From contig NBIV01000009.1 of the NCBI GenBank assembly GCA_003194525.1, positions 62,001 to 126,000 of the forward strand: 64,000 bases of DNA, in the 5' to 3' direction. Source of the DNA: Gracilariopsis chorda. Lineage: Eukaryota; Rhodophyta; Florideophyceae; Gracilariales; Gracilariaceae. The notes under the pieces were generated by a model that did no database searches, was not told the origin of the DNA, and saw only the letters and a program-made list of their open reading frames with translations. The translations under genes were made by a program, and so were the position numbers. Positions 5,714-55,055 of the stretch are shown piece after piece; the stretch's first letter is position 1; each line of letters starts with the position of its first letter.

Positions 5714-6015
5714 TGTGCAAATTGGCCGCCTGTGACACTGCACTGCTGGCCAATTTGCCTCGAATCTCCGGCTACTGGGAGCTCGGCACCCGGGCGCAAA
5801 ACACTTCCGGCTACTGGGGGCCCAAGCACCTCGCCGGCGATCAGAGTAAAAACCACTGCCCAACCGGTCCTCTCTCACCGAGTGGAGGAGGCAACCGCTT
5901 GGGAGGGACTTTGTGCCCGCTTCTTTGTCTGACCGACGCGAGCGCGACTCGGTATCCGCGAACCTTACCCCTTTACTGCGCTTGCTGACGCTCCCTCCGC
6001 ACTGCGCCTTCCTCA
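5714..6015 (+). repeat. Copia 5' LTR
   Basis: 302 bp, TGTGCAAATTGG...CTTCCTCA. The first 45 bases contain a perfect 11-bp inverted repeat, GCAAATTGGCC (5717-5727) and GGCCAATTTGC (5748-5758). A diverged direct repeat around TCCGGCTACTGGG occurs twice, about 38 bp apart. Short open frames inside the LTR are not genes. Confidence 0.93.
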
Positions 6016-6024
6016 GTTATGGGC
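6016..6024 (+). promoter_or_regulatory. Minus-strand primer binding site, half-tRNA-iMet type
   Basis: Directly after the 5' LTR the sequence reads GTTATGGGC. This is complementary to the conserved anticodon loop of eukaryotic initiator tRNA-Met (GCCCATAAC). Drosophila copia is known to prime from a 5' half of tRNA-iMet at such a site, instead of from a tRNA 3' end. The match length (9 nt) and the position next to the LTR are seen in the sequence; use as a primer is inferred. Confidence 0.7.
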
Positions 6025-6036
6025 ATAGGACTGCAA

Positions 6037-10903: not shown

Positions 10904-11400
10904 TAGTTGCTCTTTCAAAAGGTTTTACTCACTCATTTTCCCGTTCAAGAAAAGAAAAAAGAAGCATCGCTTAAGACACCAGATTGCCCCCCGCTGCGCG
11001 GTTCCCGCTATCACGTCGCATTGCGTCACCATCGCAGAGGCGGGTAATTAGAGCCGAGCTGGATATACCTGCCCCCACAATTAAGTAGGCCCTCAATACA
11101 CCTGTCGGTGGTCAGCCTCTGCAATGGGGTTTTTGACACGGGAACTAGTTTCGTTCCATGCGCCGTGATAGCTTAACGGTCTCATTTCGTCGAGCTGCTG
11201 TTGCAGAGCATCGAACTCGGATTTTCTTTGTTCAGAATTGCCAGTGATACCACTGGAATACTTGAACCAATTTCTGTTGAGCGTTAGACGTTTACCAAGT
11301 ATATATACTAGCTACATTGGTCGTGGGCTACTCTATGCTCAGGAAGATGCAGTTGAGTTCCATTGGCTGTGTTGACTGGCATAAACTGGTGTCGCCAGCC

Positions 11401-11411
11401 AAGGGGGGGAG
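11401..11411 (+). promoter_or_regulatory. Polypurine tract of the copia element
   Basis: AAGGGGGGGAG lies immediately 5' of the 3' LTR, where the plus-strand primer of an LTR retrotransposon is expected. Confidence 0.85.
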
Positions 11412-11713
11412 TGTGCAAATTGGTCGCCTGTGACACTGCACTGCTGGCCAATTTGCCTCGAATCTCCGGCTACTGGGAGCTCGGCACCCGGGCGCAAAAC
11501 ACTTCCGGCTACTGGGGGCCCAAGCACCTCGCCGGTGATCAGAGTAAAAACCACTGCCCAACCGGTCCTCTCTCACCGAGTGGAGGAGGCAACCGCTTGG
11601 GAGGGACTTTGTGCCCGCTTCTTTGTCTGACCGACGCGAGCGCGACTCGGTATCCGCGAACCTTACCCCTTTACTGCGCTTGCTGACGCTCCCTCCGTAC
11701 TGCGTCTTCCTCA
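11412..11713 (+). repeat. Copia 3' LTR
   Basis: 302 bp, 98-99 percent identical to the 5' LTR by eye. One of the four C/T differences breaks the terminal 11-bp inverted repeat (GCAAATTGGTC). The insertion site CTGAT follows it. Confidence 0.93.
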
Positions 11714-12094: not shown

Positions 12095-12870
12095 GTTTGA
12101 CATCTGCCACTGCCTCCCCCTATCAGATCTGAGCAACATTGTGTTGAGTGGTAAGCAAGTTCGTATTGGGCGGTTTTGTATACGTGTAAACTTGCTCTCT
12201 TTAGCATTGTTGGTCAGAAGGATGTAGAGGAAGTTCAATCAGACACCTGACGGTCTCTCTTCATTTTAAGAGGCAGGTCCGAGCCTTTTATGGGGCTCCG
12301 AGGCCGCCATAGCTAGCCAGAAACTATCTAACAGAAGTACTCAGTTGCATAGGTGTGTGTAGCAGTAGATCACACAATTGTACTCTTATTACGCTAATGA
12401 TTTCCGAAACTGGGAACATATCTGATTCAACCTGAATCACACTGAATTGGTTTGAGTTGTTGAATCGAACTGAGTCTGCTATACTCTCTGTAATGTAACC
12501 TTAACGACGACAAGTAGCTTTAATTGCAAGGAAATGTGTCATGAGAACTTCAAAGTAGCCTTCTTATTGTATTTATTAGTCAAGCTGGCATCCAACAAGG
12601 TTTCAAACCCATCTGTCAGTAGGAAAATTGTCACGAGTAAGAGGTATATCAGTGGGTTCAGATGTGACGCCCAACCCACGTTTTTGACTCCGTTTCGAAA
12701 GGTGGAGAATATCAAGCAGAGCGCCGCAATTAGTCGGGTAAAGGTTTCCGAGAATGAAAGACCTACAGACTCGTTATCCACTCTGGAGGTCTTCGTCAAT
12801 CACAGCAAGTCGAGGCAACCGGGCGGAAAAGGTCATACTAAACAAGGGTGCCACGGACGGCATCGGCCTA
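12095..12870 (+). repeat. Dispersed repeat family R1, copy A (uninterrupted by hAT)
   Basis: 12095-12204 plus 12515-12738 match the reverse complement of 45388-45705 at roughly 85-90 percent by eye. For example, the blocks GTTTTTGACTCCGTTTCG and AAAGGTGGAGAATATCAAGC are shared. 12738-12870 match the reverse complement of about 37650-37797 (for example GTGCCACGGACGGCATCGGCC). In copy A the two halves are contiguous, while elsewhere they flank the hAT element, so copy A is the empty-site form. A frame of about 147 codons (12534-12977) runs through it and its middle part is conserved in the 45.5-kb copy, so the repeat may once have coded. Family unknown. Confidence 0.8.
12208..12512. repeat. About 310-bp insertion in repeat R1 copy A, possible solo LTR
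   Basis: Relative to the 45.5-kb copy, copy A has about 310 extra bases between CTCTTTAG (ends 12204) and TAGCTTTAATTG (starts 12515). The extra part can be read as TGTTGGTCAG...ACGACGACA, with the TG...CA ends of an LTR. The flanking pentamers (AGCAT/AGTAG) match only partly, so the class is uncertain. Confidence 0.35.
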
Positions 12871-13092
12871 CCATTAAAAACCTCAATGCAGTACAACAGG
12901 AACAATCTGTATTTTTAGGAAAACGTATAGCACTCTTGCCAATTGTGCTAAGCAAACCTCCAAGAACAACAATGTAGCCACACGCCAAAAGAACAAAGTC
13001 CGGAATGTAAAAGATATAGAAACATACAGAGAGAAAGAAAAACAGTAAGTCAAACCAGAAAGAAGTCCAATTCGATATTATTAATACTTAGT

Positions 13093-22394: not shown

Positions 22395-23501
22395 CTAACC
22401 GTTTCTGTCACTGTCCTGAACGTTAATTGAAAAGTCCGTTCTCCTTCTGTGTAGAAAGTTGGTCAGGATTGCAGCACTGGTAAACATATGGGAGAAGACA
22501 CTTCTTCTATTAGGGCATGTATCCAAAAAGCGCCTAAAGAGTTGTTTGAGACCACTGATTCCCCACTTCACTGCCACGCGATATCCCGCATGTAGTTTGT
22601 TTAAGGCTCGTAGTACTGGGTCTTCGTCTACATTTGCCAGCTCCTTGGCATCAATGCGCCGTAAGATGAAGTGATCTAGGCCAAGATACACGGGATCACC
22701 AAGCAAATACTCTACATGATGTGGGGAGTCATGATCTACTGCGAAATGCTCTTGCCAATTTCGACTTAACCCCTTTTCCCTGAGTGCAGTCACATTATGA
22801 TAAGAACCAGCATATCCGGGCGCTATATAAATAAACATACCGTCATGATCTATCACTACAGCACTATTGAAACAGTACATCTTCTTCCTACCATTAAAAT
22901 AAGCCCTGCGGTGTCGATCATGCGGTCTCCGTATGCGACAAATTGTCCCGTCTACAAATCCAACACATCCAGGAAAGAGGGGTATCCTGCTTCGTTGCTG
23001 CTGTCTTTCAGCAGCGGTTGGCCATCTGATCTCTGATGCCATATATTCGTTAATTATGCCACAAACGAACATTGCATCATCCCTCAATGATGTACGACTA
23101 TAGTTCCAATACGAGGCTTCCTCTCTCATGACATTTCTTCCTCGCAGATACATAATGCAAGATAAAAGGCGTTCACTGGGCATTAGTTTTGAGGATTTAC
23201 CAGCCAGACCACGCACATTGTTGGTATGTCTTGCCCGTTGAATAATTATCGGTCAAACAACTGCAAACAAGGCTTCAAACTCTGCGGGATAGAGCCCTGC
23301 ATTAGTCTTAAACAGCGACATGTGTCCTTGAATGAGATTATTAAGTCTTGTTATCTTCGGAATGAGGGGATTAACTGGAAAATCGCCGTCATAGTTGTTG
23401 TCATCTAGCTCAGACAATACAATTGCACAATCTTGTACTGTATACACAAAACATTGGTATAGTAACCCTGTGAACAAAATAGGTGGCCCACGTATGGCCA
23501 A
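22395..23501 (-). pseudogene. PIF/Harbinger (HARBI1-like) transposase, one internal TGA
   Basis: The frame starts at about 23501 and reads through AEFEALFAVV, then a TGA at 23253-23255, then RARHTNNVRGLAGKSSKL and on to 22395. The 273 codons after the stop (ATG at 23216) contain the DDE_Tnp_4 fold: GFVDGTICRIRRP (first Asp, D89), AGSYHNVTALR (the usual HD is HN), LLGDPVYLG (second Asp, D174), and LHAGYRVAVKWGISGLKQLFRRF. In that last motif the catalytic Glu of the family (RVxVE) is Lys217 in this copy. Two acidic residues are kept and the third is lost, so this copy should not cut DNA even if read through. Confidence 0.85.
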
Positions 23502-26106: not shown

Positions 26107-26570
26107 ACTCATGCTAAATGCACACAGGAACCAAGAAAGGATTTGTAGTTAGTAGGAAACCGCGTCATGCAGGAATGCATTTGGTGCAAGAGAATATGGA
26201 GAGCACACTTACTCTTTGTAAAAACGATGACCTTCTCAGAAAGGCCGTTATACCTGTGACGAACGGTGCGAAGAAGTACGTCAGCTGTATGCTAATGCTT
26301 TGCCACAGATGAAGGAAAGGGAATAGGAACGGAATGAAGTATTTCAGATGCAGAGACCGGGGATGTGAGACTCGTTCCAAGAAGTTCCAGAGGGCGAAGG
26401 ATGCCCAAATACCGCAAGCCTGTGAACAGAAAAGAGATAAGTGAAGTGAAAAGTACGTGTTGCCCGAAACTTTTGCCGTTTTCAAATCTTAAAATAAATT
26501 GTTCCCAAATTGTTGTATCTCCGCGGTGGCAGTTTGCATCTTCTACATTCGCAGACTGAGTACTAGTCAT

Positions 26571-26622
26571 TTGCCTTCTTCATTCCGCATCATATAAACA
26601 TATCGTTCTGCAGCACTGTGAT
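26571..26622. promoter_or_regulatory. Putative shared promoter of a divergent gene pair
   Basis: Only 52 bp separate the ATG of the Tnp2-like gene (26623, +) from the most upstream ATG on the minus strand (26570) that could start the repeat-protein gene. If that minus-strand exon is real, the two genes share a very short bidirectional promoter. Confidence 0.25.
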
Positions 26623-29600
26623 ATGGGGAGAGGAAGAAAGAGATACCGATGGAAAATATCACTGCAAGGTAGGCAATCGCTTTTCGAACATTATCATGCT
26701 GAGGAGGAAGATAGATTTTCCTCAGAGAAGAGATATGTGGAGGGAGCTCAAAAGCGAGCACGCAAGTGTCCAGTCGAGAGAGATAATTCTCTTTGTAGAG
26801 AAGAAGAAAGGGCATATCGAGATGTAGTGCCCCAGAAAAATGATTCTCAACAACCTTGTTATGAAATGAAAACTTCATCACAACAGTCTGAAGTCCTGCA
26901 AGAACCTGATGAAAACGAGAGTGTAAAGATTCCTCTCGAGTACGGAGACCGTCATAATGGGGATTACTCTCCCACGAAGGCTAGTGCATCTGTTGAGAAC
27001 GGTATAAATGTTCCTGATCTCCAAAAGTGTGCTAGTGTAACACTGGAACAGCACCTTGGCCAATCGTTCGAAGTACCACCACTTTCACCAGTCTTTGGGA
27101 TACATTCCTCATCTCCAGCGTTTTCGGATCACGCTGAACACTCCATAGAGCTTTCAACACACTCAACGGAAGATATCAAATACCCAATTCAAGAAGAATA
27201 TGAACGTTTGGCTGGTTTCATATACAATGCAGAAGTGTCCAATGTGTCCCAGAGAGCCATTGAAAGACTGATGAAAGTGGCACCGATATCCTCGCCCTTT
27301 TCTTACAGAAGCCTTATATCGTATGCGTTTCGTAAGGCTCATGTCGAGAAATCGTTCGTAAGAATGTGTCGTAGAGGACATGTTGCTTGTTCGGGACCAC
27401 TGAAATCCGTACCCAAACGCCCCTGCTGCGATTGCTCTCTCGCGAAAAGTCCTCAAAAATATTGGTTCATGAAACCATCATCAGCCCTGAAAGCGCTTTG
27501 CCGTGCTCCTGATTCCTTTCGTGCAATAATGGAAGAGTTTCTCAGAGCAAAGAACTCAATTTCCCACAGTCGATCTGAAGCTGAGGAGCATGATTATTAT
27601 CATGGCTCAATGTTTCAAAGACAGCACAGTGCACTTCTGGAAAAGTTTACCCCACACGCCAACGACCTCGTCATTTACCTCACGCTGTCCTCAGATAGAT
27701 TTGAATGCTCTCAGAACCGCAAGGGAGAACCCATCTCGTGCTGGCCAGTCATCTTCACCATCCTAAACTTTGCCCCTCACGAAAGAAGCCGAGCGTCAAA
27801 CTGCTTAATATACAGCGTTGTTCCTTCAACGCATGACCCGCAATACTTTGATACCTTCATGACAGACATAGTTTCGGACCTGAAGGAGTTAGAGAAAGGA
27901 ATAATGACACTCTGCCATGATGGGAACATAAGAAATGTGCACGCTTTTGTTCTGTACTTCACAGCAGATTGGCCAGCTGCATCGAAAGTTCTGGGTTACG
28001 TTGGACACACAGCGAAACTGTTTTGTCGATTTTGTATGAAGAAAAGAGTGTACATGAAGGAAACACGGTGCCTTTGTGCTGTACCGGAAAACAAATGGCT
28101 TCTGAAGCAAGCTATAGCGAGAAGAAGTTCATACCGAAGCGGTGACATCATAAGAAACGAATGTGGACGGAAGAGACTGGCGTCAGGTGTTAGATCAATA
28201 TGGAGAGATCTGAGTTCCAGCAACATCGAAGAGAGCGCAAAACGACGACTGGTTAACGAGTCAGGGATCAAAAGACCCTCTTGCTTATCAAAACTGCTGA
28301 TGGATTCTGTCTTCTCCTCTCCGTACGATGTCATGCATTTAGTCCTCTTGGGATAGACTAATCAAGTTCTCAGACTTCTTACATGCAGTCACCCAAGACA
28401 CACCAAGCTCGAACAAACTCCAAGGTACTGCATACCGGTCAGAATTATGGAAAGGATAAACAAATCTTTGGATCTCTTTGTCCATGGGATACCAAGCTCT
28501 TGGGGAAGAGCTCCGCTTTCTCTTCAAAATCTGTCTCGATACAAAGCCGAAGATCTGAAGCGCCATGCAGAACTGTATCTTCTTCCGTTTTTTCATCGTT
28601 TCAAAGTGGACAAACAGATTATCAACCTTTGGAATCAGACAAAACATTTGGTGAACCTAAGCTTCACGTACAATTGTGATGACACGTTCGTTAAGGATCT
28701 CCAACGCGTGGTGGAAGAATGCTATGCAAGATTCGTGATGCTCTTTTGCCCAAACAAGCATGATTCATATTGTCTTACTCCTACCACGCATTCCATACTG
28801 CACTTGCCCGAGCTTCTCAACGAATGCGGTCCCCTCCCAATCACTTCCCAGTTTCTTGTAGAAAGACTTTTAGGGGAAATAGGCAGACGAGTTCAGCAGA
28901 CGTCCAATATTCCGTCACACATCTTTCACAAAAGCTTCAAATTGTTTGCTCTGAAAGTGGCCAACGGAGGAACACCATTCACAGACATTTTTGAGGAATC
29001 AAGTTCATATCCAATGGCTGCTCTAAGTCGTAGCAGTGGTTCTGAGAGCGCATCAGAATATCACACCGGTGCAAAAGGTCATGGAGCTGGGACAAAGTAC
29101 CAGAAGCTGACCAAGGAGCAAAAGCGAGCAGTACGGTACTTTCTGGCAGAAAACTTTCCAGATGAGAAAGATGTTGCCAACATAGTATCCTTGAAGCAGT
29201 TCAGACGGGCAACATTGAGTAGAGGTGCCGACAAATTGGTAATTGAAAGCATCGATTGTCACCATGTGCAATCTCAACTCTCTTCCACACAAGCACAAGC
29301 ACGGCAAAGGTACTGCATCGCTGCTCATTTTTCTCCAGAAATATCTTGGCAGTCGGAGGATACATCTGATCCACGAGCATTGAACAAGGTGTGGCATGTT
29401 TATTATGGTTCCATTAAAAAAATTGTCGAGGTTGTGTTCCAACTTTCACGGCTGAGAGTAGCTGCTGTGTTCAGAGATGTTAAATGGCAGCATAGCATGG
29501 TAGAGGATCACATGCTCGACCTTGTGTACACAGATAAAAAGGGCCACGAAATGAAGACGACTGAGCATGCGAGCTGTATTCAGAGAGTTATTGGCTTCCT

Positions 29601-29694
29601 TGACATTGAAGGGCGGAAGTACTATCTTGATCCCTATCGCAATGAAACCAAGATTGGAAGAAAGTCCATTCTGCAAGGATGTACGAAACCATGA
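26623..29694 (+). pseudogene. CACTA/EnSpm Tnp2-like transposase interrupted by one TAG
   Basis: One frame runs for 1,023 codons with a single TAG at 28354-28356. Before the stop (577 codons): a charged N-terminal third, a Cys cluster (CCDCSLAK, near residue 270), then the Transposase_21/Tnp2 core. In it are LTLSSDRFE (D358), WPVIFTILNFAPHERSR, DTFMTDIVSDLKELEKGI, FTADWPAASKVLGYVGHTAKLFCRFC (D449), and SPYDVMHLVLLG (D569) right at the stop. After it the frame resumes at once with TNQVLRLL and a DUF4218-like segment (THSILHLPELLNECGPLP...FLVERLLGEIGRR), then VWHVYYGSIKKIVEVVF near the end. Sequence on both sides is collinear with the family, so a nonsense mutation is more likely than an intron; regulated readthrough cannot be excluded. 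Confidence 0.82.
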
Positions 29695-37559: not shown

Positions 37560-37797
37560 GCTGCCCTCTTCCAAAGTTTCTTGGTACCGCTGAGTTTGGC
37601 AAGTTGCAATCATAGATGAGCAATGAATTCCCAAGAGCGGCAGGGTGCTTGGCGTTTTGGAGGCCGATGCCGTCCGTGGCACCCTTATTTAGGGTGACCT
37701 TTTCTGCCCGGTTGCCTCGGCTTGCTGTGATTGACAAAGACCTCCACAGTGGGTAGGGAGTCGGTAGATCTTTCATTCTTGGAAACTTTAACCCCAC
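37560..37797 (-). repeat. Repeat R1, copy B half (left flank of hAT insertion)
   Basis: The reverse complement matches 12738-12870, including TTTCC-AGAATGAAAGA, CTGTGGAGGTCTTTGTCAATC (one or two changes) and GGTGCCACGGACGGCATCGGCC. The match stops at about 37797, next to ACCCCAC (37791-37797); the other half of the repeat resumes at 45388 with the same ACCCCAC. Confidence 0.8.
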
Positions 37798-37807
37798 AGA
37801 TGCGTTT

Positions 37808-37977
37808 CTATCGATGGGATTACAATCAGGGGTTGCTCCGAAGAGCAAAGATGGCAATCTGATGGACTTCTTAGTGCAAGAGCTTGCAATATGATGGGCT
37901 TTTAGTGCAAAGACTGCCATCCGATGGGCAAGAAATTAAGCAATTCTCCCATCAGATGGTATCAAGTCCATCGATAG
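37808..37977 (+). repeat. Left subterminal motif cluster of the hAT element
   Basis: At least five variants of a core like (T)GCAATCTGATGG occur here in both orientations: CTATCGATGGGA, TGGCAATCTGATGGAC, TGCAATATGATGGGC, TGCCATCCGATGGGC, CCATCAGATGG and GTCCATCGATAG. Equivalent clusters occur at the right end. In Ac/Ds, short subterminal motifs bind the transposase; a similar role is inferred. Confidence 0.6.
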
Positions 37978-38218
37978 TGACCGTTAAATATCGATGTCAG
38001 AGTTCAAACATATAACCATTCACTAACAGTACTTTTCATACCGTTAAATAGTTATCCTTACAGTGCAAGGCTACGATAAACATCGGTTCGGCTTGAATTT
38101 CAAGCCTTGAAAGCCATGCGAAGACCTTCTGCAAGCGTCAATAGCATTTCCTAGCAGCAGGCTCGTTCGTTTATTTGCCTCAGCTTTATTTCCACGATTA
38201 TGTCCTATTCTACAAATC

Positions 38219-39099
38219 ATGCCCGTATCTCACGCTTCACCAACTCCGAAAGCGGTTGTCACTGCATTTGCCAAGTTTCTGCGTTCAGAAACGCGATCAT
38301 TACGAACAAAGGCTGCGAATGTTGTGCAAAGGAAACATCTTGTCTACAAATACCCCAACGCAAACTGCAAAAAGACGGACAAAGAAATTTTCTTTCAAAA
38401 CAACAAAGGGTTCTGCAACCCTGCTAGCCACATCAGAGCATGCTTAGCCGATGGAAACGACAATACGCTTCTCGAAATGTACAATCATCGTATTCGTCGC
38501 AATGCGGAAACTGCAGATGTCGACTGCTCAGATTTATTCTTGCGCAAGACTACTTAAAAAAAAAGGTTTTCACGGCTATGTAATGCTTATTTTCATGAAT
38601 GGAATGCCATTATTTATCGTCGAAGATTCCATTGTGCGATCGTTTTCGAAGTACACGGAGAAATTCTCTCACTCCTTCGTTTGTAATGGTTTACTGAAAA
38701 TGGCAGAACTCGTTGAGCAGAAACTTGAAAAAAAAATGAAGGAGGCCAAATAGGGTGCTATTATGCATGACAGTTGGAGTTGTGGAGGTTTCCATTATAT
38801 CGGACTATTTGCCAGTTACAATCGAAATTTGAGCACCAATCTCAGTAAGAATCACGTAGAGAGCCGAAATGTTGTTGAACTTGCGCTGCTGTTCTGCTCT
38901 CCGATGGCAAGTGTGGATACTTCTCGCACTTAAAATGATCATTCTATAGAAGAGACTGTCAATTTTAATGCCTGGACTCCTGCAGAGCATAGCAAGGACA
39001 TGTTTCGTTTCTATAATCTGGTTGTTAGGGTTTGGGCCGTTGGCCAAAATAGCTGACAATTGTCAGTTGAACAAGAAGGTTGTTAGGATTCCTGGAATC
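38219..39099 (+). pseudogene. hAT-like transposase, 5' part
   Basis: A BED-type zinc-finger region opens it (CKKTDKEIFF...GFCNPASHIRAC, 38219-38450). A second frame follows with MPLFIVEDSIVRSF (near 38607) and, after a TAG at 38751, GAIMHDSWSCGGFHYIGLFASYNR (read as two adjoining blocks), matching the 'l(M/T)DgWT' strand of hAT transposases. A third frame carries KIADNCQLNKKVVRIPGI up to the gypsy insertion at 39099. Two frameshifts and at least two stops make it non-functional. The reading frame continues without a base lost at 44173. Confidence 0.75.
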
Positions 39100-39369
39100 T
39101 GTCGTGTTGAACGCCGTGGAAAACTCATCGTCAGTCATAGCGGACGTGGCTGGAGTCCGAGATTATATGTTTGACTGACAATGGATCGAACTACGTGTTC
39201 TACACGATACTATTTACTGACAATGGCCACGCTGCGTTTGACACTCCGCACCATCGTCAGCAGTACTTAAAGGCTGAGGAATTGTGCAGCCAGTAAACTC
39301 GAAAAAGACCAGCAGGTGTCTGATTGAACTCCTCTGTTGCCTTCGCCGCTCTGGTACTCGACCACCACA
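39100..39369 (+). repeat. Gypsy 5' LTR
   Basis: 270 bp, TG...CA. Followed by a T-run instead of a TGG primer site. Confidence 0.93.
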
Positions 39370-39417
39370 TTTTTTTCAATCGACCAAACTACTTTGTTTC
39401 CGCACTACGTCAGAAGG

Positions 39418-40716
39418 ATGGGAAAAAACGCTGCGACGTCTTTATCGCAATTGCTGCAGCGGCAGCAGCTAGAAATGAAGAACTTATCTGCGTCTTTCAT
39501 GAAGGTGGAGGTGGAGTTTTACGATCTTTCTCTTGTTGACCCGACTAACTTTGACCGCAATCGGAAGGCGGAATTTGACAAACGCCTCAAAGAAGTAGAA
39601 GAAGAGCGAAGTGGAATTGTGGGGCTTGTAGACACGACCGAGAAGCGTATTGAGACAACTCAGAAGCTCATCGCGGCTTCAGAGAGCATGCTTACCGGTG
39701 CTATTGGACTGGGGCGGAGCCGAGGAGCGAGCTACCGCATACCAGTACTGCCTTTTTTCAGGGGAAGTGAGTCCACGTGAGTCCACGGCCATCAAAGATC
39801 CTTTTGAGTACCTGGGCAAAATCAAAGCGCTGTCTGAGGCGCACGAGGTGCCTCAGCGCCGGTGGTACTCGGCGCTGCTAGCGACTCTAAATGGATTTGA
39901 TCGCCAATGGGCAGAGAGTAACCTTGCTGGCCTCAGATGGCAGGAGCTGCATGCGAAATTTCTTCACCATTTTGAGTCCCCCGCGATCCGAGACAAGCTG
40001 GTTCGTGACCTCATGACGATTTCGCAGAAGTCTTCCGAGTCCGTGCAAGAATACAGCGACAGGTTCACAAGCCTCATGGCCCGGACTGGTCGTCGCGATG
40101 ACGAAAAGTCGCTGGTCGCGGTTTATATCCATGGTCTGGATGCTGAATTGCAGGACTTCGTCATCGTGACACGGGCGGCCACTTTGAACATGTGGAACCG
40201 GAGCAGCCAAGGGCCTCCCCCAGTGTCGATCTCAAGTGAGATGTCCAGCGCGATCACGTTGGACTCCTCCCGTTCGTTGAGGCGCAAGAAAGAACAGGCC
40301 AACAAGAAGGAGTCAGTAGGTAGCCCAAGCAACAAGAAGTAGCGTGACAGGCATGGCACCCAGAAAATTCCCTGTCCGAGAAGAGTACTTCAAAGAAAGA
40401 CAACTCGAACCAGGGGAAAGGAAAATCGCTGGAAGCCGCGACGAGAGAGCAGCTCCGAAAGGAGAAGAAATGCTTCGAATGCAGGAAGTCGTGGAAGCCG
40501 GGACATAAATGCGAAGACAGCGTCAAGAAGGAGCTCCAAGCCGCAAAACTCCAGATAGAGAATACATGTGAGTCCAGCGAGAATCTCAGTTACTCTGGGC
40601 AGCTGTTGGATGCCGATGCGGATCTCATGGCGCTGTTTGGATATGATGATCACGATATGCGGGCCAGACTCCTTTTGGACGTTGAGGAAAGAAGGAAACG
40701 AAAGAATCTAACCTAA
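39418..40716 (+). pseudogene. gag: Gypsy Gag with a duplicated 10-mer frameshift
   Basis: Starts MGKNAATSLSQLLQRQQ at 39418, with a coiled-coil N-terminal region (KEVEEERSGIVGLVDTTEKR). The direct duplication GTGAGTCCAC at 39767-39776/39777-39786 shifts the frame; deleting one copy would join it to the second frame (DPFEYLGKIKALSEAHEVP...), a typical Ty3 Gag/retrotrans_gag domain that runs to a stop at 40342. Sequence from about 40400 to 40716 carries the nucleocapsid motif CFECRKSWKPGHKC (near 40471), the C-X2-C form often seen in chromoviruses. Confidence 0.8.
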
Positions 40717-40718
40717 AC

Positions 40719-41138
40719 GCCCTTTGCGCAGCCCCTGAAGACGCTGGGGAGCTTTTGTATACCCCTGTACAGATCAACGGTGTGGATGGGTGGGCCATGG
40801 TAGACTCAGGAGCCACGTCGAGTTCCATATCAACTGATTTTGCTCGAGAGGTCAGCATTCCAGTTCAAGAAGTCTCGGGCAGCGTACGAGACAGCCGTGG
40901 CAAGGTGATGGCAGACCGGAAGGGTATAGCTAAGGTCACGGTCAGCAATGGGACTCGCTCGACACAGCTAATGGCCGAACTCATGCAGATGCCACCAAGG
41001 AGGCATATGATCATCGGACTGCCGCATTTTCCGATGTTTGGATACTCTGTTGAAGGAGTACCTCAAGCAGTTGAGACTCCAGGTGATGAAGACCAAGTAA
41101 CCCCAGATCCCGTGCCGGGAAGTCCGATAACACGTTAG
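40719..41138 (+). pseudogene. Gypsy aspartic protease region
   Basis: A retropepsin with the active site AMVDSGATSSSI (near 40800) and a second conserved strand MIIGLPHFPMFGY (near 41010). Frame 3, separate from gag and RT, stop at 41138. Confidence 0.8.
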
Positions 41139-41149
41139 AAGCACCAGGG

Positions 41150-43882
41150 ACGCCAGAAAGAATCTCGAATGGTGTCACGAGTGCCCTCAAACGCAACCAA
41201 GAAATCCCTCTTTCAGCGCGTTGCACGCATCCGTTGGCAAGCCTGCGCGTCCAGCCTTCATCAACCGCGCCGATATGGAGTCTAGTGAGTTTCGTGTCTC
41301 GGAAGGATGAAGGTCGTGTCAGCGCTGAGATCAACAGATGGTTCTCAGCGAAGGTTATAGAAGTGGCACCCGACGACTGCGCCAATGCTTTCCCAATCCT
41401 TAGCGTCCCGAAGAAGGATGGAAATGGAAACAAGATTGATGTTCGTCCATGTATCGACCTACGGCGACTCAACGCCCTGCTCGTGGACTCGGACTATCCC
41501 CTGCCCCGCGTGCAGGAGATATTGGACGCTGTAGGATCTGTGTCAGGACCTGAAGCCGTGTTTACGACCCTTGGCATAAGAGACGGATATTTCCGGTTTC
41601 CTGTCCCTGAACAGGATAGGAATTGGGTGGCATTTCGCTGGAAGGGCAAACATTATCGCATGCGCGCGGCACCTTTCGGAATCAAAACCATGTCTGCTAA
41701 GTTCCAACAGCTCATGGACAAGATTTTCTACGACGTCCCGTGTGTCGCCGTTTAAATTGACGACATTATCGTCTTCTCCTCCAACAAAGCAGAGCACTCG
41801 GAGCACTTCTAGCATGTCATAGATATACTGCCAAAATGGAACATACCGATCAGAGTGGACAAGTGTCGGTTTGGTCAACAGGAAGTCCAACTGCTAGGCT
41901 TTATCGTCACTGGTGACGGTATTCAGAAAGACCCAACCAAGGTTGAAGCCATCTCAAACTGGGAACGCCCATCGACAGTGAGACAGTTGCTCAGCTTCCT
42001 CGGCGCAGCCAACTACTACCGCCAGTTCATCCCAAGGTTCTCGCATATATCCAAGCCCCTCGACGTCCAAAGAAAGGAGAAGGGTACACTACATTGGACC
42101 CCGGAAATGAGCGAGGCTTTCGAGGAAATCAAGAAGAGAATGGCAGAGGAAGTCACTCTTGCATACCCATTATATGAAAACGAGTACTTGGTTGGCACGG
42201 ATGCTTCAGATTTTGGACTTGGAGCGTGGATCGGACAGAAGCCAAACGGCAAAGACCTCCGCTTTATAGCTTTCGCGTCGCGATCTTTATCACACTCGGA
42301 GACCAACTATGGTGCTACGAAGAAAGAACTCCTTGCCATAGTATGGGCGTTGGATAAGTTCCGATGCTACCTCCTCGGAAAGAGATTCAATCTGTACACC
42401 GACCACCGCGCGCTTACATTTCTTCACACACAGCGCAAAGTGAACTCGATGATTGCACGATGGTTTGACCGTATAATTGAATTCGACTTCCGCATCGTGC
42501 ACCTACCAGGTCCTCACAATCATCTGTCAGACGCTTTGAGCCGGAAGATGCCCATCGCTACCCTTGCAAGCCTCACTATATCGCAGCTTGTACGTAATAA
42601 GACTGCGCCGGAGGCTGAGAGGGATAGACGCTCATTGGTTGAGCGTGCCCATGGATTCGGACACTTAGGTGAAATAGAAGTCTTTAAGAAGCTTTGGCAC
42701 AGCGGATACTGGTGGGACGGAATCAGAAATGACATTCGGAAGGAAACTGGTTCTTGCATACCTTGTCTACGCTATAATTTTCAGAAGCGCGGGTTCCACC
42801 CACTGAGGTTTGTCGTCGCAGAGCTGCCCTGGGATCACCTGGCAGTTGATCTGATAATACCAATACCTGTCTCGGACAATGGTCACAACACCCTACTGAC
42901 AAATGTATGTCTTATGACGAAGTTTGCAATCCTGCGTCCTGTAAAGAGCAAGGATATGGAACAGGTGGCGCGAGCACTATGGGAAGTAATGTCAATCTTT
43001 GGTGTACCCAAGATAATTCAGTCGGATAATGGCTCGGAGTTCGTGAACAAGCTGGTGCAGGAACTGGTGAAGCTAAATGGGATTGATCACCGCACCATCT
43101 CACCGTATAATCCCAGAGCTAATGGGGCGGTTGAAAGAGTCAATGGAACGATCGAGACTATGCTTCTTAAGGAGCTAAACGGAGCTACCCACCGATGGGA
43201 GGAGTTTGTCCCATACATTCAGCTGGCGTACAACTGCAAAATTGCCGCACTGACAAGTTCGACGCCTTTCTCGTTAATGCTCGGAAGAGCCATGAATGGA
43301 TTCAGAAGGTTCGGGAAAACAGCCACAGCGTCCCCACTGACCTAGGAGTTATGGAAGAAGCATCAGCAAAACGTGAATGAAAACGTATTTCCAGCAGTAA
43401 CAGAAAGAGTGAAGCAGGTCAAGAAAAAAGAAGCGCGGTACTTTGCCGCTGAACGTAGTATGATCAGCCCAGACACGTTTCCTCCAGGTTCTCGCGTTAT
43501 GATGCGCGATCTCACTAAGGACTCAAAGTAGGATGCGCGGTATGATGGTCCGTTTACTGTAGTGCACAAGAATAGAGGAGACGCTGACGTTCTACGAGAC
43601 GAACTTGGAAAGCTGAAAAGGACTGTGCCTCCCGATCAGTTGAAGTTGGTCATGCACAATGGAGACGAAACTGCAGTCGAAGAAAGCACTCACGTCGTCA
43701 AAAAGGTTACCAACCACCGCGCAGAAAAGAACGGGAAAATGAGTTACTTTGTCGTCTGGAAAGATAGGAATATTGTACCTGGATGGGAGGCCGTGGAGAA
43801 TTTTAACGATATTGACATCATTCGTAAGTATTGGAATTCTGTCCGTCCCACTCGGGCGTCGAAACGCAAACAGCAGGACTGA
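41150..43882 (+). pseudogene. pol: Gypsy Pol: RT, RNase H, integrase and chromodomain
   Basis: One frame throughout with four stops. RT: VPKKDGNG...VRPCIDLRRLN, then FFTT-type block (VFTTLGIRDGYF), PFGIKTMSAKFQQLMD. At the YVDD box the Tyr codon is TAA (V-stop-IDD, 41753). RNase H: LVGTDASDFGLGAW, KKELLAIVWAL, YTDHRAL. Integrase: zinc finger H-X3-H...CIPC (near 42640-42770), catalytic D in HLAVDLI, D in IIQSDNGSEF, E in GAVERVNG. The C-terminus has a GPY/F-like block (RYDGPFTVV) and a chromodomain (HVVKKVTNHRAEKNGK then YFVVWKDRNIVPGWE, 43690-43850). Chromodomain plus integrase places it among chromoviruses. Confidence 0.92.
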
Positions 43883-43897
43883 CCTGGAAACGAGTGA

Positions 43898-44167
43898 TGT
43901 CGTGTTGAACGCCGTGAAAACCTCATTGTCAGTCATAGCGGACGTGGCTGGAGTCCAAGATTATATGTTTGACTGACAATGGATCGAACTACGTGTTCTA
44001 GACGATACTACTTACTGCCAATGGCCACGCTGCGTTTGAAAGTCCGCGCCATCGTCAGCAGTACTTAAAGGCTGAGGAATGGTGCAGCCCGTAAACTCGA
44101 AAAAGACCAGCAGGTGTTTGATTGAACTCCTCTCTTGTCTTCGCCGCTCTGGTACTCGACCACCACA
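43898..44167 (+). repeat. Gypsy 3' LTR
   Basis: 270 bp, paired with 39100-39369; followed by the TSD GAATC. The purine tract before it is weak (GGAAACGAGTGA). Confidence 0.93.
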
Positions 44168-44172
44168 GAATC

Positions 44173-45050
44173 CCAATTGTTGGGTGCAAGAGTCATTTGC
44201 TCAACTCAGAGGTCAACTTCATGGTTAAGGAAGTTCAGGACATTGGTCGAACTCTGATCTCGGTCCATGAAACCATGACTCAATGCAAGCAAAGGTTAAA
44301 AAACGCCGCCCTACTTCGTAACCTTGTTTCTTTAAGCCCTTTTTTGTATAACCACACACGTTGGTCAGGAAAGCAGTGCATGCTGCAGCGTTTTTTACGA
44401 ATTCGGGATGAACTCATCGAGGTGAGTGATGAAGATAGATCTGATTTGGCAATTAACAGCAGTGAAGCATCCAAGGACAATGCTAGAAGATATTGCAAAC
44501 AACTGAAGCAAATTGACATTAAAACCAAGTACTTGCAGACCAGAAAACTATCTCTCTCTAACAGTCAGAATTCACTATATTTTCTGATTGCAGAGATACA
44601 AGAAGGGTTTAACCATTCCAAGTCTCCGTTTTATCATTGCTTTTTGAAGAAGCGATACATTTGCACTGATGCCAGAATTCCGGACACTCGTGCATTTGAA
44701 AGAGATGTGTGCAAAATAAAGGATGGAAAAAGTGCGATAATGACAGAAGAGGAGAAGATGGCATGTGAATGTTTTTTTCATTCCTGTTGAGGAGACAAAC
44801 GAAGGGAAAGAAGAAGCAGGGGAGTGTGCAGCAGATTATAGGGAGCGTCTAAATCAGCAGAAGCGTCGAAAGATTGTAACGGATCTTTGCTATATGAATA
44901 GAAATTTTATCTTAGGCTCAGTGGCAGACGTTGAATGGTTGTGGTCCATTGCAGACAGTGTGCTATGTGGTAATCGTATGAAGACAACTATTCTATTGTT
45001 TTGAGGCAATTCTATTCTTGTGTGTTAACAGCAGGTTTTGGGACGTGTAG
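44173..45050 (+). pseudogene. hAT-like transposase, 3' part with dimerisation domain
   Basis: Continues the 5' part in phase after the gypsy insertion: PIVGCKSHLLNSEVNFMV (the 'vgCasH.lnlav' block of hAT transposases), then a helical region (ENVHETMTQCKQRLKN type) to TGA at 44790. A shifted frame (44765-45004) and a further shift carry the hAT C-terminal dimerisation motif: FILGSVADVEWLWSIADSVL, NRMKTT, then FEAILFLCVNSRFWDV ending at TAG 45048-45050. In active family members this motif reads close to 'TSAxVERLFSxA...FExxLFLKxNRxLW'. Confidence 0.75.
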
Positions 45051-45209
45051 ATGGTTGAAGAGGCGCTGGCAGCAGTCAGAGATGACAATTTTTCGTCTCA
45101 GTATGATTTATTAGGTTATAGCTACATATCCTTGGCATGGTGAGATTTAGAGCACCAAACTACAATTTATACGAAAGTAAAGGGATTGCATTTGGATTGC
45201 AGTTACAAG

Positions 45210-45385
45210 AAAAGATTACAATCTGATGGCAGTTTATGAGGAGCGATGGCAATCTGATGGACCATGAAAGAAGGGGAACTGCAATTCGATGGAAATTACG
45301 GTCAGAAGTAACCCATCGCCATCGATGGAGAGATTGGTGTGGGAAACAGCAATCTCCAGCACATCAGATTGTTTCCATCCCTGCT
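45210..45385 (+). repeat. Right subterminal motif cluster of the hAT element
   Basis: Variants of the left-end motif: TTACAATCTGATGGCAG, ATGGCAATCTGATGGACC, TGCAATTCGATGG, GCCATCGATGG and CATCAGATTGTTTCC. The two best left and right copies share GATGGCAATCTGATGGAC-type sequence (18 bp). Confidence 0.6.
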
Positions 45386-45387
45386 CT

Positions 45388-45705
45388 ACCCCACTCAGTG
45401 CAGCGTTTTGCTTGATATTCTCCACCTTTCGAAACGGAGTCAAAAACGTGGGTTGTGCGTCACATCTGAACCCACTGACATACCGCTTACGCGTGACGAT
45501 TTTACTCCTGACAGATGGGTTTGGAACCTCGTTGGATGCCAGCCCGACTAATGAATACAATTATACGGCTACTTTGAAGTTCTTATGACACATTTCGTTG
45601 CAATTAAGGCTACTAAAGAGAACAACTACACGTATACAAAACCACTCAATACAATCTGCTTACCACTCAACACAATGTTGCTCAGGCCTGCTACTGTAGG
45701 GGGCA
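45388..45705 (-). repeat. Repeat R1, copy C half (right flank of hAT insertion)
   Basis: The reverse complement matches copy A at 12095-12204 and 12515-12738, including TGAGCAACATTGTGTTGAGT, CATCCAACGAGGTT-CAAACC and CACGTTTTTGACTCCGTTTC. It lacks the 310-bp insertion present in copy A. Confidence 0.8.
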
Positions 45706-49981: not shown

Positions 49982-52900
49982 TCATACTTGAGGGCGTGCT
50001 TGCACGACATAGAATTCACCATCTTTGAAGCAGCCTTCAATGTCCTGAGGAACGCCACCCATGATGTCTTCTACTTCAACACCGATCTTGGCAACGCCGC
50101 GAATCATAAAGTCGCGGAATTCATCGTCAGTTGTAAGACGCTCGTTCCCGTAATTGATGCTAACAACTTCGTTTTCGAAAAGGGGTAAAGAGTCATGTAG
50201 CCCTGCTCCGGCGAATCCATCTAGATCTTCTGCGTTACTGTCTGACCGGAAGATGAAGTCGCCGCCAAAAAGAGCCGTGGCCTTGCTTGGATAACTTCGT
50301 ATGACAGGTCTAACTTCGTCGAGGTCTTCATCTTTGCGTACGGTAAAACCCATTGCCTGACCCGGTGCATTTCCAACAAGTGTTTCCCCCAATCCCACCA
50401 CTATCTCTCCATACAATTCGTTCTCATCTCCTGTGACAGGGTTTGAAGTATGTATAACGAACGCATAGTCGGCGTCGACTACTCTCTGGCATAATACGGC
50501 CATGTCAACATCATCAACATCTAAACGCAGCTTTTGCCTGGCAAGATGGGCGCGCTCGTTCCATATACTAGCCCATACACCTTTCACCGCAACCCAAGCA
50601 TTAGGCAGAGTTTGATCTATGTCCTCGCAACCGAGGTCGTCGAGAACGCCTCGAAGCGCTTCCTTGAGCCCTTCTGGGGCTTCAAGACTTTTGATGACGT
50701 CGCGCAGTTTGGGGCAGATCTTAACATCACCAAGCTTTGCTGCTGATACCTGTTTGTTCAGACGCTCATACTCTTCTAGAAGATCCTGATTCGTATCAAA
50801 GTTCATGACTTTCTTCATGGCTCCAAATGGGATTGCAACTGACAGAGGTGTTTTAATCCATGAGGGCAGGCCAAGAGCTACGAGACGTTGCAAATTCAGT
50901 GACTTCCCTCCGACAAGCTCGTCGCTAAATTCTGATGGACGAATAGCCCAAGGCGCTCCCAACTGTCTGTTATGCAACGCCGCTTTCTTTTGACTTAGAG
51001 CTCTCAGGGCACGTTCACTTAGCTCTCGTCGTGTTAATCGTCCACCTTCGTCTTTCATTAGCTTCCCACGCTTCAGACCAGCGAACATGCCCGGTGGCGT
51101 CATCATACCGCTAGGGGGAGTGATGAAACCAAGGGATTTGACCCTCTTCATTACCGATTGTACCCCAGAGCTTGGTGACATTCGCGCACTATCATCCACA
51201 ACTTCAACCCTGAAGTCTTCTCCGCGGAGCTGTGCTTTCACAATGCACCCATGAAGACCTCGAAGTTCAGCCAGTTTAGACTCGTCGAGGCATGCAATGA
51301 GCCCGTGGCGTTCGTTTCTGGCACGGACTGAGACGTGCGAGAGGACATCAACCGTTGAACCGATAACTACGTAGGAAGCATTCTTTGGTACATCCTCGCT
51401 CCCGTCACATTCGTTCGCGATAATGACCGTTCCGCGCTTGATATTTGCACCTTCGCACTCCCTAAGCTTATTAAAGACCACAACTGGTCCTTTCGTTTCC
51501 TTGTCTAATGGAGCAATAGTTGAGTAAGGTCCTAATTGCGCAACTCGTCGAACCGCCGGGCCGGCTTTGCGAAGAAGGGTTGATAAGGAGAACGCCGGCC
51601 CCCCTCGTACAGATTCTTCGATAAATGTTGATATCACGTTCTTATCAGCATTAAATGCTAACCCAAGACATTTTGAAACTGGGCCGAGCCTTTGACCGTA
51701 TCTATCGATAATCTCCGTGAGCACGTTCCTCATGATGTTCATACCAGCAGCAGCGCGAAGTCCGACGTCATGGGATTCGCCTTGACGGCCTAACCTGGCA
51801 ATAACAGCGTCTAGGTCATTCATTGCACGAGACAGTTCATGCTCAGTCTCTAAACCTGCTTCAGAGCACATGAGAGCCCCGGCAGCAGTTTGAATGGCTA
51901 CAAGGTGAGAGTATAATGTGCCGTCATGTCCAACACCTCCGACAGATTCTAGAACCCTTCTTGCTTCTGATTCCAGGGCAAGATCCAGGAAAATGAGATC
52001 CCTCCTTGATTCATCATGTAATGAGTTCGAGAAGATTACATGATCGCATACCTTCTTTCTCGCTCCGGCGACAGACATTAGTTTGTCGAGAACCGGGGAA
52101 CGCGAATTGCGGATGTACATGAAGTTATTTACTTCATGTCTACAGCCATCGTCCATAAGGCCCTGACATCTTTCAACAATTGAATTCAAATCTGTGCCGA
52201 GATGCACTTGTCGGAGCAGTGCACCGTATCTTCGAAGCTCCCACAACATCGTATCCTTGATATGACCTCTGAAGTCAGGGTCATTGGTAATTGGTTGTTC
52301 GTACGACGCCATTCTTTCTCTGCTCAGGCCATGAGAATGAATAGTGTCCCAGTACCCAGATAAATTTCCATTGCCTTCCCAGAATACAATCAGCGCATCG
52401 CAGATTACGACATCGTCCGGGCTTGTGTTATTATGCAACTTCTGATGCCACTGTTCCATCATGGAGCCATGACCCCAGTCTCGACAATGGCGTATGATAG
52501 CGAGGATGTCATCCCGAATGCGTTGCCCAAGGTCTCCAGAACCGCCACGACCAACACATGACATTACAAGGCGAGCTAACCAACGAATTGCAGACACATT
52601 TTTAAACTTGTTTGCAAGGAGAGTAACCAATCCGAGCTGGGCTGAACTCAATTCTCGAGGTTTGGTGTTAAAATGTCTTTGCCAATCAAGCACTCGGATC
52701 TGAGAGTACCTCATCCACACATATATAGTCGCCCAGCATGTTTCGTCGGCACCAATAACTGAACTTATAAGATGACTTGCGTGTTTATATCGATGCATAA
52801 GCGTCCATGATCCGTATTCCATTTCTCTCTCAATGATGCCTTCAAGCGTGGTAACACATACATCAGTAAAATCACCATCAGCGTTGAGACCCGGTAGAGG

Positions 52901-54034
52901 TCGCTTTGGAATGACAGGAATAAAGATGTCGCCTCCTTTAGCAGCCTGCATCCACTGTAAATGATGGGGTGCATTTGGGGCATGGATAACTGAGAATAGC
53001 CCCGTGACATCTTCAATCTTTTCCAGATTGTTGATACATGCGATTCTGAGACCAGAATCCCCTTGCAGTTTGAGGACAGTTTGTACAGCTTTTCCGTCTG
53101 GCATGGCAGTGGAATCCTCGGGTCGGCATTCTGACGGAGCGGGATGCCAACCGCCTTTTCGGCCTTTCTTGACGCCCCAGTGCAGAACAATATCCGAACC
53201 TTCAACGGATAGAGTAGAAACAACATGAACTCGAATGCGTCTCTCTTCTAGCTGCATCTCATCCCGAGTGACGGATGCGCTCTCGTCAGGGAAGGGAGCA
53301 GTTTCAACTACTTGGAAAAAGAGGGAACCAAACTCGTACGCTTCTTCATGGGCCTTGAAAAGGTTCCAGCCATCGGCACTTGCTGAATCGTCGAGATACT
53401 TGGCAGCTTGTTGCGATCTCTTTTCTTTCATAGCTTGTTCCTTCTTCTTCCTGGCCTCAGCTTCAGCCAGCTCTTTAGCCTTTCTTTGCTGTTCCTCTTT
53501 GTGTCTTTTTTCCTCAGCCTTCTTCTGCTCTTCGAGAACCATGCCTCTTCGCTTAAGTTCTGTTTTGCTAACAGCGCCAGTAAGATCGACATAAAAACTG
53601 CTGCCGTTAGGTCTCTTAAACCATTGCTCGTCGAATCCATTTGTAGAGCGAATCATGAAGAGAAAGACAAGTCCAGCGGGTGCAAACCGCTCCGAAAAGC
53701 GCATGGAAAGCACGCCGCCATCGGTGAACGGGGATTGCAGACTAGGCTCGCCCGGACGAGGATCGGTGCCTTCGGGCCACATGGACTTGGGCGGACGAAC
53801 GTACACAGAGCGGTTATCGGATGCATTCTTGACGATACCCCAGTGCAAATAGAGTGGCTCCCCTTCACGCTGGACTGGTTTGCCAACACGCTGAAAGTTG
53901 ACTTCGATTTCGGGGCTGGAGTCGTGGCGAGTGACGGTGACTGTAGCATGCAGCGGGTGGGCCTCTAGAGTTTCGGTGGAGTAGTGTTTTGGGACTGTGG
54001 GTTCAGGAGCTTTGGAAGCTGCGCTAGCACCCAT
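49982..54034 (-). CDS. GWD: Alpha-glucan, water dikinase (GWD), single exon
   Basis: 1,350 residues from ATG at 54034 (MGASAASKAPEP). The frame is open 34 codons further upstream, but that part lies in the probable leader. The enzyme transfers the beta-phosphate of ATP to C6 of glucose in starch through a phospho-His intermediate. Domains in order: CBM45-like starch-binding module 1 (LYLHWGIVKNASDN...RPPKSMWPEG, about 20-150), a charged Lys/Glu-rich helix (about 165-220), CBM45-like module 2 (VLHWGVKKGRKGGWHPAP, about 270-330), a long helical middle region, the phosphohistidine domain with catalytic His900 in DVLSHVSVRARN, and the C-terminal ATP-grasp/PEP-synthase-type nucleotide domain (VGGKSLNLQRL; FRSDSNAEDLDGFAGAGL; DIEGCFKDGEFYVVQARPQV at the end). 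All key residues are present. There is no plastid transit peptide, fitting cytosolic floridean starch. Confidence 0.97.
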   Translation of the reverse strand: MGASAASKAPEPTVPKHYSTETLEAHPLHATVTVTRHDSSPEIEVNFQRVGKPVQREGEPLYLHWGIVKNASDNRSVYVRPPKSMWPEGTDPRPGEPSLQSPFTDGGVLSMRFSERFAPAGLVFLFMIRSTNGFDEQWFKRPNGSSFYVDLTGAVSKTELKRRGMVLEEQKKAEEKRHKEEQQRKAKELAEAEARKKKEQAMKEKRSQQAAKYLDDSASADGWNLFKAHEEAYEFGSLFFQVVETAPFPDESASVTRDEMQLEERRIRVHVVSTLSVEGSDIVLHWGVKKGRKGGWHPAPSECRPEDSTAMPDGKAVQTVLKLQGDSGLRIACINNLEKIEDVTGLFSVIHAPNAPHHLQWMQAAKGGDIFIPVIPKRPLPGLNADGDFTDVCVTTLEGIIEREMEYGSWTLMHRYKHASHLISSVIGADETCWATIYVWMRYSQIRVLDWQRHFNTKPRELSSAQLGLVTLLANKFKNVSAIRWLARLVMSCVGRGGSGDLGQRIRDDILAIIRHCRDWGHGSMMEQWHQKLHNNTSPDDVVICDALIVFWEGNGNLSGYWDTIHSHGLSRERMASYEQPITNDPDFRGHIKDTMLWELRRYGALLRQVHLGTDLNSIVERCQGLMDDGCRHEVNNFMYIRNSRSPVLDKLMSVAGARKKVCDHVIFSNSLHDESRRDLIFLDLALESEARRVLESVGGVGHDGTLYSHLVAIQTAAGALMCSEAGLETEHELSRAMNDLDAVIARLGRQGESHDVGLRAAAGMNIMRNVLTEIIDRYGQRLGPVSKCLGLAFNADKNVISTFIEESVRGGPAFSLSTLLRKAGPAVRRVAQLGPYSTIAPLDKETKGPVVVFNKLRECEGANIKRGTVIIANECDGSEDVPKNASYVVIGSTVDVLSHVSVRARNERHGLIACLDESKLAELRGLHGCIVKAQLRGEDFRVEVVDDSARMSPSSGVQSVMKRVKSLGFITPPSGMMTPPGMFAGLKRGKLMKDEGGRLTRRELSERALRALSQKKAALHNRQLGAPWAIRPSEFSDELVGGKSLNLQRLVALGLPSWIKTPLSVAIPFGAMKKVMNFDTNQDLLEEYERLNKQVSAAKLGDVKICPKLRDVIKSLEAPEGLKEALRGVLDDLGCEDIDQTLPNAWVAVKGVWASIWNERAHLARQKLRLDVDDVDMAVLCQRVVDADYAFVIHTSNPVTGDENELYGEIVVGLGETLVGNAPGQAMGFTVRKDEDLDEVRPVIRSYPSKATALFGGDFIFRSDSNAEDLDGFAGAGLHDSLPLFENEVVSINYGNERLTTDDEFRDFMIRGVAKIGVEVEDIMGGVPQDIEGCFKDGEFYVVQARPQV

Positions 54035-55055
54035 CTTTGGAGGACGAAGGGAGAGCAAAAGGGAGGTGGAAGCTAGCTGGTAGGAATGCTCGAAGAAGAC
54101 AGTACAGAAGAGGTTAAGAAATGAAGGTTGAAGCAATGTGTTGGAAATGAGGTTTGGTTACTAGTACGGTGCGGCGAAAGCAACGGAGAGGGGGAGGAAG
54201 CGACAGCAGACGTACGTCTGCGGGCGCGATGGGTGAGGAAAAGATCGAAGAACTTGCGCGATTGTTCTCGCGTGGAACAGGATCAAGCACAACAGAAGAC
54301 CCATACGATGACCTCTCACGTGATGCATCGTGCACTACACTGTAAAGGTTAGAGTATGCATACGGGTAACAGATATTTGCCGGGAGGCGGATCTGACCTG
54401 CGGTGACAAGTGTAATTTAGTAATTTTTTGGATATGACGGAAAAGATGTATTGAGATAGATACAATGGGAGCCGCGTCTTGCGCTTCGATAATTGTTACG
54501 GCCAAGTTAAGTTACCAAGGGTAACCCTTTTGGCCCGAAAAGTTTTTTATGTCTACTAGGATAGAGGTGACAAAGAGCCAATCAAAATTTCAGCAAAAAT
54601 CTACAATTTAGTGTCTTAGCAAGTAATTTTATTACCGAAAGTGCACGTTTGTCTAAAGGTTTCAATAAAGCTTTGCAATCTGTCTTTTCTTATGTTTATC
54701 TCAGTAGGCATAAGCAGTTGGAGTACTTGGCAGTCTAGCAACCAATTGTTTAAGTTGCTTACAGTATTTTACCCAATCATATTTCAAGCGTATTTCTATC
54801 CCAGTCGACATAAGCTCGCCGGGTCAAAAGGGTTAATAACATGCAGAGTGAGCTGAAGGCTACCGAACGCAAAGGGCTTCCTGAGATGGTGTTAGGGGAT
54901 ACCCGACCTGGTTGCGCCCGACAGTCCAAAGCAATAATATTTGCAATTACATACCTGAAAAGCAAATTGCGGACCCGATGCCCGAAGCCCTTTGCTGATC
55001 GCCGCCACCTTCCCGCGCTCGCACAATCCATGATGCATCCGAGTACAACCGCATC
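54035..55055. other. Divergent promoter region of GWD and uL29m genes
   Basis: 1.0 kb, AT-rich in the middle (54410-54800), no gene. GWD (-) and the ribosomal-protein gene (+) face away from each other, so both promoters must be here. Confidence 0.5.

Follow-up and report, generated by a model that had tools for sequence, protein, structure and literature searches.

A hAT-like element interrupted by a Ty3/gypsy retrotransposon, and a copy of its target site without either element, in one 64-kb window

A three-level nest and its empty site in one window

Repetitive sequence around 37 to 45 kb of this window raises the question of whether one transposon has landed inside another, and whether the same window also holds the landing site as it was before. 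The window is the whole 64-kb stretch analyzed here (C9:62001-126000 in an assembly of 91.3 Mb and 1081 contigs), and its contents are eukaryotic. We found a genuine three-level nest, in which a repeat termed R1 holds a hAT-like element that in turn holds a gypsy element, together with a copy of the same landing site, 25 kb away, that contains neither. The collinearity of the R1 halves, both junctions, a gypsy-free sister of the hAT-like element and R1 loci free of that element were all observed directly.

We aligned the two R1 halves, both on the minus strand (distal half, 37658..37794; proximal half, 45384..45693), with the R1 block on the plus strand at 12113..12873. As the original prediction had stated, the reversed halves are collinear with the 12-kb copy. 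Identity is 386 of 430 aligned bases in three pieces without rearrangement (118/132 on the far side of the break, 203/227 and 65/71 on the near side). The halves separate at a single clean point occupied by the hAT-like element, with 7.6 kb of other sequence between them. The 12-kb copy had been described as contiguous, which is incorrect: 308 bp at 12205..12512, part of another dispersed repeat, are inserted there. Although interrupted at that point, the 12-kb copy is the empty form at the hAT site, which lies at 12736..12743 and reads CTTTACCC on the minus strand.

The innermost element is a Ty3/gypsy LTR retrotransposon at 39100..44167 on the plus strand, identified by its LTRs and Pfam matches. 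Its 5′ LTR (39100..39369) and 3′ LTR (43898..44167) align with 255 of 270 bases identical, and a perfect GAATC duplication stands at 39095..39099 and 44168..44172, in agreement with the original prediction of a gypsy element inside the hAT transposase gene. Pfam places a gag frame (Retrotrans_gag) at 39632..40342, an aspartyl protease frame at 40686..41138, a reverse transcriptase frame at 41090..41755 and a frame with RNase H and integrase at 41813..43345, all on the plus strand. This order, with reverse transcriptase and RNase H upstream of integrase, is that of Ty3/gypsy elements. Further LTR pairs are spaced like those of additional copies, namely C36 (94% identical to the window 5′ LTR) and C42 (89-93%, in pieces), and more distant pairs were recognized by the same spacing in C45 and C204. 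The C36 pair has a 5-bp duplication of its own, ACGCA, supporting the LTR edges assigned in the window. The element resembles known Ty3/gypsy elements in gene order, TG...CA LTRs and 5-bp duplication, and nothing about it is outstanding apart from its frames, which look split by stops and shifts.

The state of the hAT-like element before the gypsy insertion is represented by a second copy at C11:75087-77558. This copy is 86.5% identical over 2166 aligned bases, contains neither the gypsy element nor an LTR match, and at the right stops about 220 bp short. Where the window reads GAATC, gypsy, GAATCCC, the C11 copy reads GATTCCC. An open frame of 254 amino acids spans this site in C11, which shows that the gypsy element entered the transposase gene afterward. 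The gypsy-free copy that had been anticipated thus exists.

The R1 repeat and its two copies in the window

R1 was found at no fewer than seven loci, the two in the window and one each in C280, C144, C250, C45 and C146. The C250 locus stops at a contig edge short of the hAT site. The other four cross the site and none of them (0/4) holds the hAT-like element, as expected from the original prediction. Since C280 and C144 are 99.3% identical over 3.1 kb, these four loci count as three independent ones. They extend only about 13-17 bases beyond the hAT site before the family edge is reached, so that the wide flank on that side is contributed by the 12-kb copy alone.

Within the 12-kb block the family part spans about 12139-12760. 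Past this edge the two window copies have approximately 117 bp in common; this final stretch matched the 37-kb half only, and genome similarity searches returned no third match to it. From the opposite end of R1, homology in C280, C144, C250 and C45 continues into a RING-finger frame, with R1 upstream of the frame (Pfam RING families with E down to 1.8e-7, for the C280 frame only). Because of the common sequence past the edge and the continuity with the RING-finger frame at the other loci, we interpret the two copies in the window as a probable duplication of a segment that already held R1. Alternatively, R1 could itself be a transposon that was inserted separately at 12 kb and at 37/45 kb. 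The number of loci is compatible with such a history, and independent copies have a common edge near 12756-12760. We consider it unlikely all the same, given the 117 bp past that edge and the homology toward the RING-finger frame, and no terminal repeats were recognized by eye. A Helitron, a solo LTR and a LINE end were each considered by eye for R1, and none fitted. Of the earlier proposal that R1 had spread before the hAT insertion, duplication before that insertion therefore stands; the spreading need not have been transposition, given the 117 bp past the edge and the RING-frame homology at four loci.

Ends and relatives of the hAT-like element

The hAT-like element, including the nested gypsy, spans 37795..45383 on the plus strand, of which about 2.5 kb is the element proper. 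At its right end, 45376..45383, it reads CAGGGATG on the minus strand; the left terminal repeat at 37795..37802 is decayed, with CACAGATG in place of that sequence (two changes). The subterminal 300 bp at the left (37795..38094) and at the right (45084..45383) contain GATGG/CCATC 9 and 8 times, respectively, and none of 1000 first-order resamplings reached as high a count at either end. Directly outside the element lie TTTAACCC at 37787..37794 and CTCTACCC at 45384..45391, both read on the plus strand; the first matches the empty site at 6/8 positions and the second at 7/8. These two copies match each other at only 5/8 positions and are decayed.

The original prediction had placed ACCCCAC at both junctions. 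The string is indeed present (37791-37797 and 45388-45394), but as a target duplication it disagrees in register with the C11 end and with an 8-bp duplication around a relative in C34. The duplication is probably better read as 8 bp, with ends of the CAGGGATG type and CTTTACCC as the empty site. A 7-bp duplication of ACCCCAC, bounding an element at 37798-45387, agrees at 7/7 positions where the 8-bp copies agree at 5/8, and it fits the empty site ungapped with two changes on the left. Several observations make it improbable. The C11 copy, found by similarity, starts with CAGGGATG at the point that corresponds to the left end of the window element, and the window right end has the same eight bases reversed; the C before AGATG therefore belongs to the element and the CTCT at the right does not. 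In C34 the duplication is perfect (8/8) and adjoins CAGGG. The relatives in C28, C34 and C250 start with CAGGG as well, although this start was partly required by the pattern that picked them; a fragment found by similarity in C66 starts with GAGGG. Finally, a 7-mer common to two 26-base stretches occurred in 47 of 2000 random window pairs, so that ACCCCAC by itself is modest evidence. In the CAGGG register the shared string would be partly a matter of chance, its last letters belonging to the element on the left and to R1 on the right.

A genome search with a pattern built on the C11 and window ends gave 55 matches at ≤2 mismatches, compared with 17 for the reversed control. Besides C11 we inspected the four one-mismatch matches (4 of the other 54). 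Three of them have matching subterminal repeats and start with CAGGGCTG (C28), CAGGGATG (C34) and CAGGGTTG (C250); the remaining one, C36:322482, showed no apparent relationship. The C66 fragment starts with GAGGGATG and matches bases 2-72 of the hAT query only, after which its sequence is unrelated. Among five related loci examined for ends with duplications (L045-L049), four weak pairs in three loci, each with 5 mismatches, were taken as chance.

The right end of the C34 relative was located by searching the genome for the end together with the duplication. Of the 27 matches, one is on the C34 contig itself, correctly oriented and 14.6 kb off, where about 0.002 chance matches would be expected; the test was run twice, for C34 and for C28, and none of the 23 genome matches for C28 lies on its contig. 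The C34 element is flanked by TGTCCTCG on both sides (8/8), its right end reads CATGCCTG, and ATTGCAATC is repeated there as at its left end. There are hAT protein matches inside both ends, and on the other strand a frame that by eye resembles another kind of transposase. The interior also holds a retrotransposon with GGTAC on both sides, whose LTRs are 736 bp long and 97.3% alike; its frames, read by eye, assign it to gypsy. Since C34 has its own hAT ends and its own LTR element, and its interior gave no nucleotide match to the window, its sequence identifies it as a comparable nest, independent of that in the window.

The gypsy elements of the window and of C34 are unrelated to each other, and their insertion points in the homologous transposase stretch are separated by about 50-55 bp (17 or 18 codons). 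The chance of such closeness, estimated roughly as 110 bp out of 2.4 kb, is about 5%. One might suppose that gypsy elements land preferentially in the part of the transposase gene near the C-x2-H-x-LN motif, an idea to which we give little credence. Six other copies or relatives (C11, C81, two in C158, C4 and C556) are uninterrupted at that stretch; five of the six were found by matches near it, and one of the C158 copies seems to be nearly a duplicate of that in C556.

The label hAT-like is based on the terminal DNA sequences and on protein motifs recognized by eye, because Pfam scans and a PDB search with the C81 frame gave no transposase match and the structural model was poor. The window frames, all on the plus strand, look broken by stops and frameshifts. 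They comprise an N-terminal part at 38111..38557 (zinc-finger-like by eye, no Pfam match above the cut-off), a next part at 38448..38753 taken from the frame list and the C11 comparison, and a frame after the gypsy element at 44173..44790 containing CKSHLLN and TRWSGK. No Pfam transposase family was reported in 16 pieces (three from the window, four C11 frames, four homologous proteins and five relatives' frames). For one homolog, P0003, a protein database lists PF27039.1, a family that our own Pfam scan of P0003 did not report. The PDB search returned chance-like rows only, and the predicted transposase structure had a mean pLDDT of 39.8. Compared with a protein database, the window transposase piece retrieved five proteins, one of them the window's own and none named. 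With the C11 frame (202 candidates) and the C81 frame (222 candidates) as queries, no protein reached E ≤ 0.001. By eye we recognized the motifs D-N-C, C-x2-H-x-LN, R-W-S-G-K and V-E-R-x2-S-x-A-D, which we compared with what we take to be the motifs of hAT transposases.

The DNA features of hAT elements were found in this group. The 8-bp duplication is intact in the C34 relative and decayed in the window, short terminal inverted repeats of the CAGGG type stand at the window right end and the C11 left end, and subterminal repeats occur at both window ends. PMC3260210 describes maize Ac as ending in C/TAGGGATGAAA and making 8-bp duplications, and the terminal sequence here is as in Ac. Like Ac/Ds of maize and Hermes (PMC3260210, PMC10368747), the present group combines an 8-bp duplication, here in C34, with dense short subterminal repeats at both ends. 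The subterminal motif is GATGG in the window and ATTGCAATC in C34, rather than AAACGG. The group also differs in that the window copy is decayed, its transposase pieces lack a Pfam match and one relative lacks a PDB match. The locus also displays the termini of a hAT-like group with a transposase that escaped our Pfam scans, and its elements are fresh members of already known kinds.

Order and relative age of the insertions

The original prediction placed R1 first, the hAT-like element second and the gypsy element last. This order is borne out by the empty R1 site, by the gypsy-free C11 copy and by the K2P distances, which are 0.112 (0.079-0.146) for the R1 pair and 0.058 (95% interval 0.030-0.090) for the gypsy LTR pair, with intervals that overlap slightly. 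Because the filled and the empty states are available at both levels, the hAT insertion is bracketed between the R1 duplication and the gypsy insertion. The distance between the window hAT-like element and the C11 copy, 0.150 (0.133-0.167), gives the age of the split of those two copies and not that of the insertion in the window.

Duplication of the R1 segment followed by the hAT insertion at CTTTACCC and then by the gypsy insertion is the joint explanation that we favor, with a probability of roughly 0.92. A segment carrying R1 would have been duplicated to give the 12-kb and the 37/45-kb copies. Going by the known chemistry of these families, a cut-and-paste hAT-like transposon would then have entered the 37/45-kb copy at this site and duplicated its 8 bp, and a Ty3/gypsy element would later have entered the transposase gene just before the C-x2-H-x-LN motif, duplicating GAATC. 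The 12-kb copy would never have received the hAT-like element and would instead have taken an unrelated LTR-like insertion of 308 bp.

The 12-kb copy could also once have held the hAT-like element and lost it, as hAT elements do excise and its sequence is compatible with perfect repair. We regard this as very improbable. When hAT elements excise, a footprint usually remains; the 12-kb site is continuous and has none, and all four of the other R1 loci found to cross the site are empty too. An assembly error merging unrelated repeats, which do misassemble, is scarcely credible in view of the perfect duplication at the gypsy junction, the matched target at the hAT junction and the independent C11 sister without gypsy.

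The succession of a duplicated R1 segment, a hAT-like element and a gypsy element resembles nested plant LTR retrotransposons, in which later elements lie within earlier ones and the order of events follows from this (PMC6911290); it differs in having a DNA transposon as the host element and an empty site 25 kb off. The nest is an ordinary kind of genome history, not a surprising one and unusually well documented, and it alters no general idea. It is a clear example whose use lies in the ordering of events, with two nested levels and, at each, the filled and the empty state of one target within one genome.

The insert in the 12-kb R1 copy is missing from the 45-kb copy. By eye it has TG...CA ends from 12208 to 12512, and the same repeat stands alone elsewhere (C71, C116 twice, C35, C111, C42 and more), both of which make it resemble a solo LTR. 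Its flanks, AGCAT and AGTAG, agree at only 3/5 positions. The R1 copy in C146 carries a different insert of about 300 bp, approximately 20 bp off from this position.

A nested hAT relative on contig C34

The related hAT-like element that we located by its end pattern on contig C34 spans 14.6 kb (loci L081 and L082, C34:178500-193290) and is bordered by a perfect 8-bp duplication. Two interruptions lie within it, a DNA-transposon-like stretch of another kind and an LTR retrotransposon with LTRs of 736 bp and a GGTAC duplication. The retrotransposon sits ~50-55 bp away from the position homologous to that of the window's gypsy element.

Surroundings of R1 outside the window

A RING-finger frame lies downstream of R1 in four loci, including that on contig C280 (L052, 1861-3064), suggesting that R1 may be the upstream region of a gene rather than a transposon.

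The R1 copy on contig C146 carries an insert of its own (~300 bp, at about 2600-2925 of L056), offset by ~20 bp relative to the 308-bp insert in the window's 12-kb copy and differing from it in sequence.

Other elements and frames in the window

The Copia-type element at 5714-11713 contains an RVT_2 frame (9296-10702) and has LTRs of ~300 bp each that are 98.4% identical, with CTGAA and CTGAT flanking the element and a purine run preceding the 3' LTR. Two long neighbouring frames at 26560-29694 likely represent a CACTA-type transposon, as judged from the Transposase_21 (tnp2) and Plavaka matches of the first. A PIF/Harbinger-like transposase frame with a DDE_Tnp_4 match occupies 22395-23252, and a frame of 1391 aa, of the alpha-glucan water dikinase type, lies at 49982-54157.
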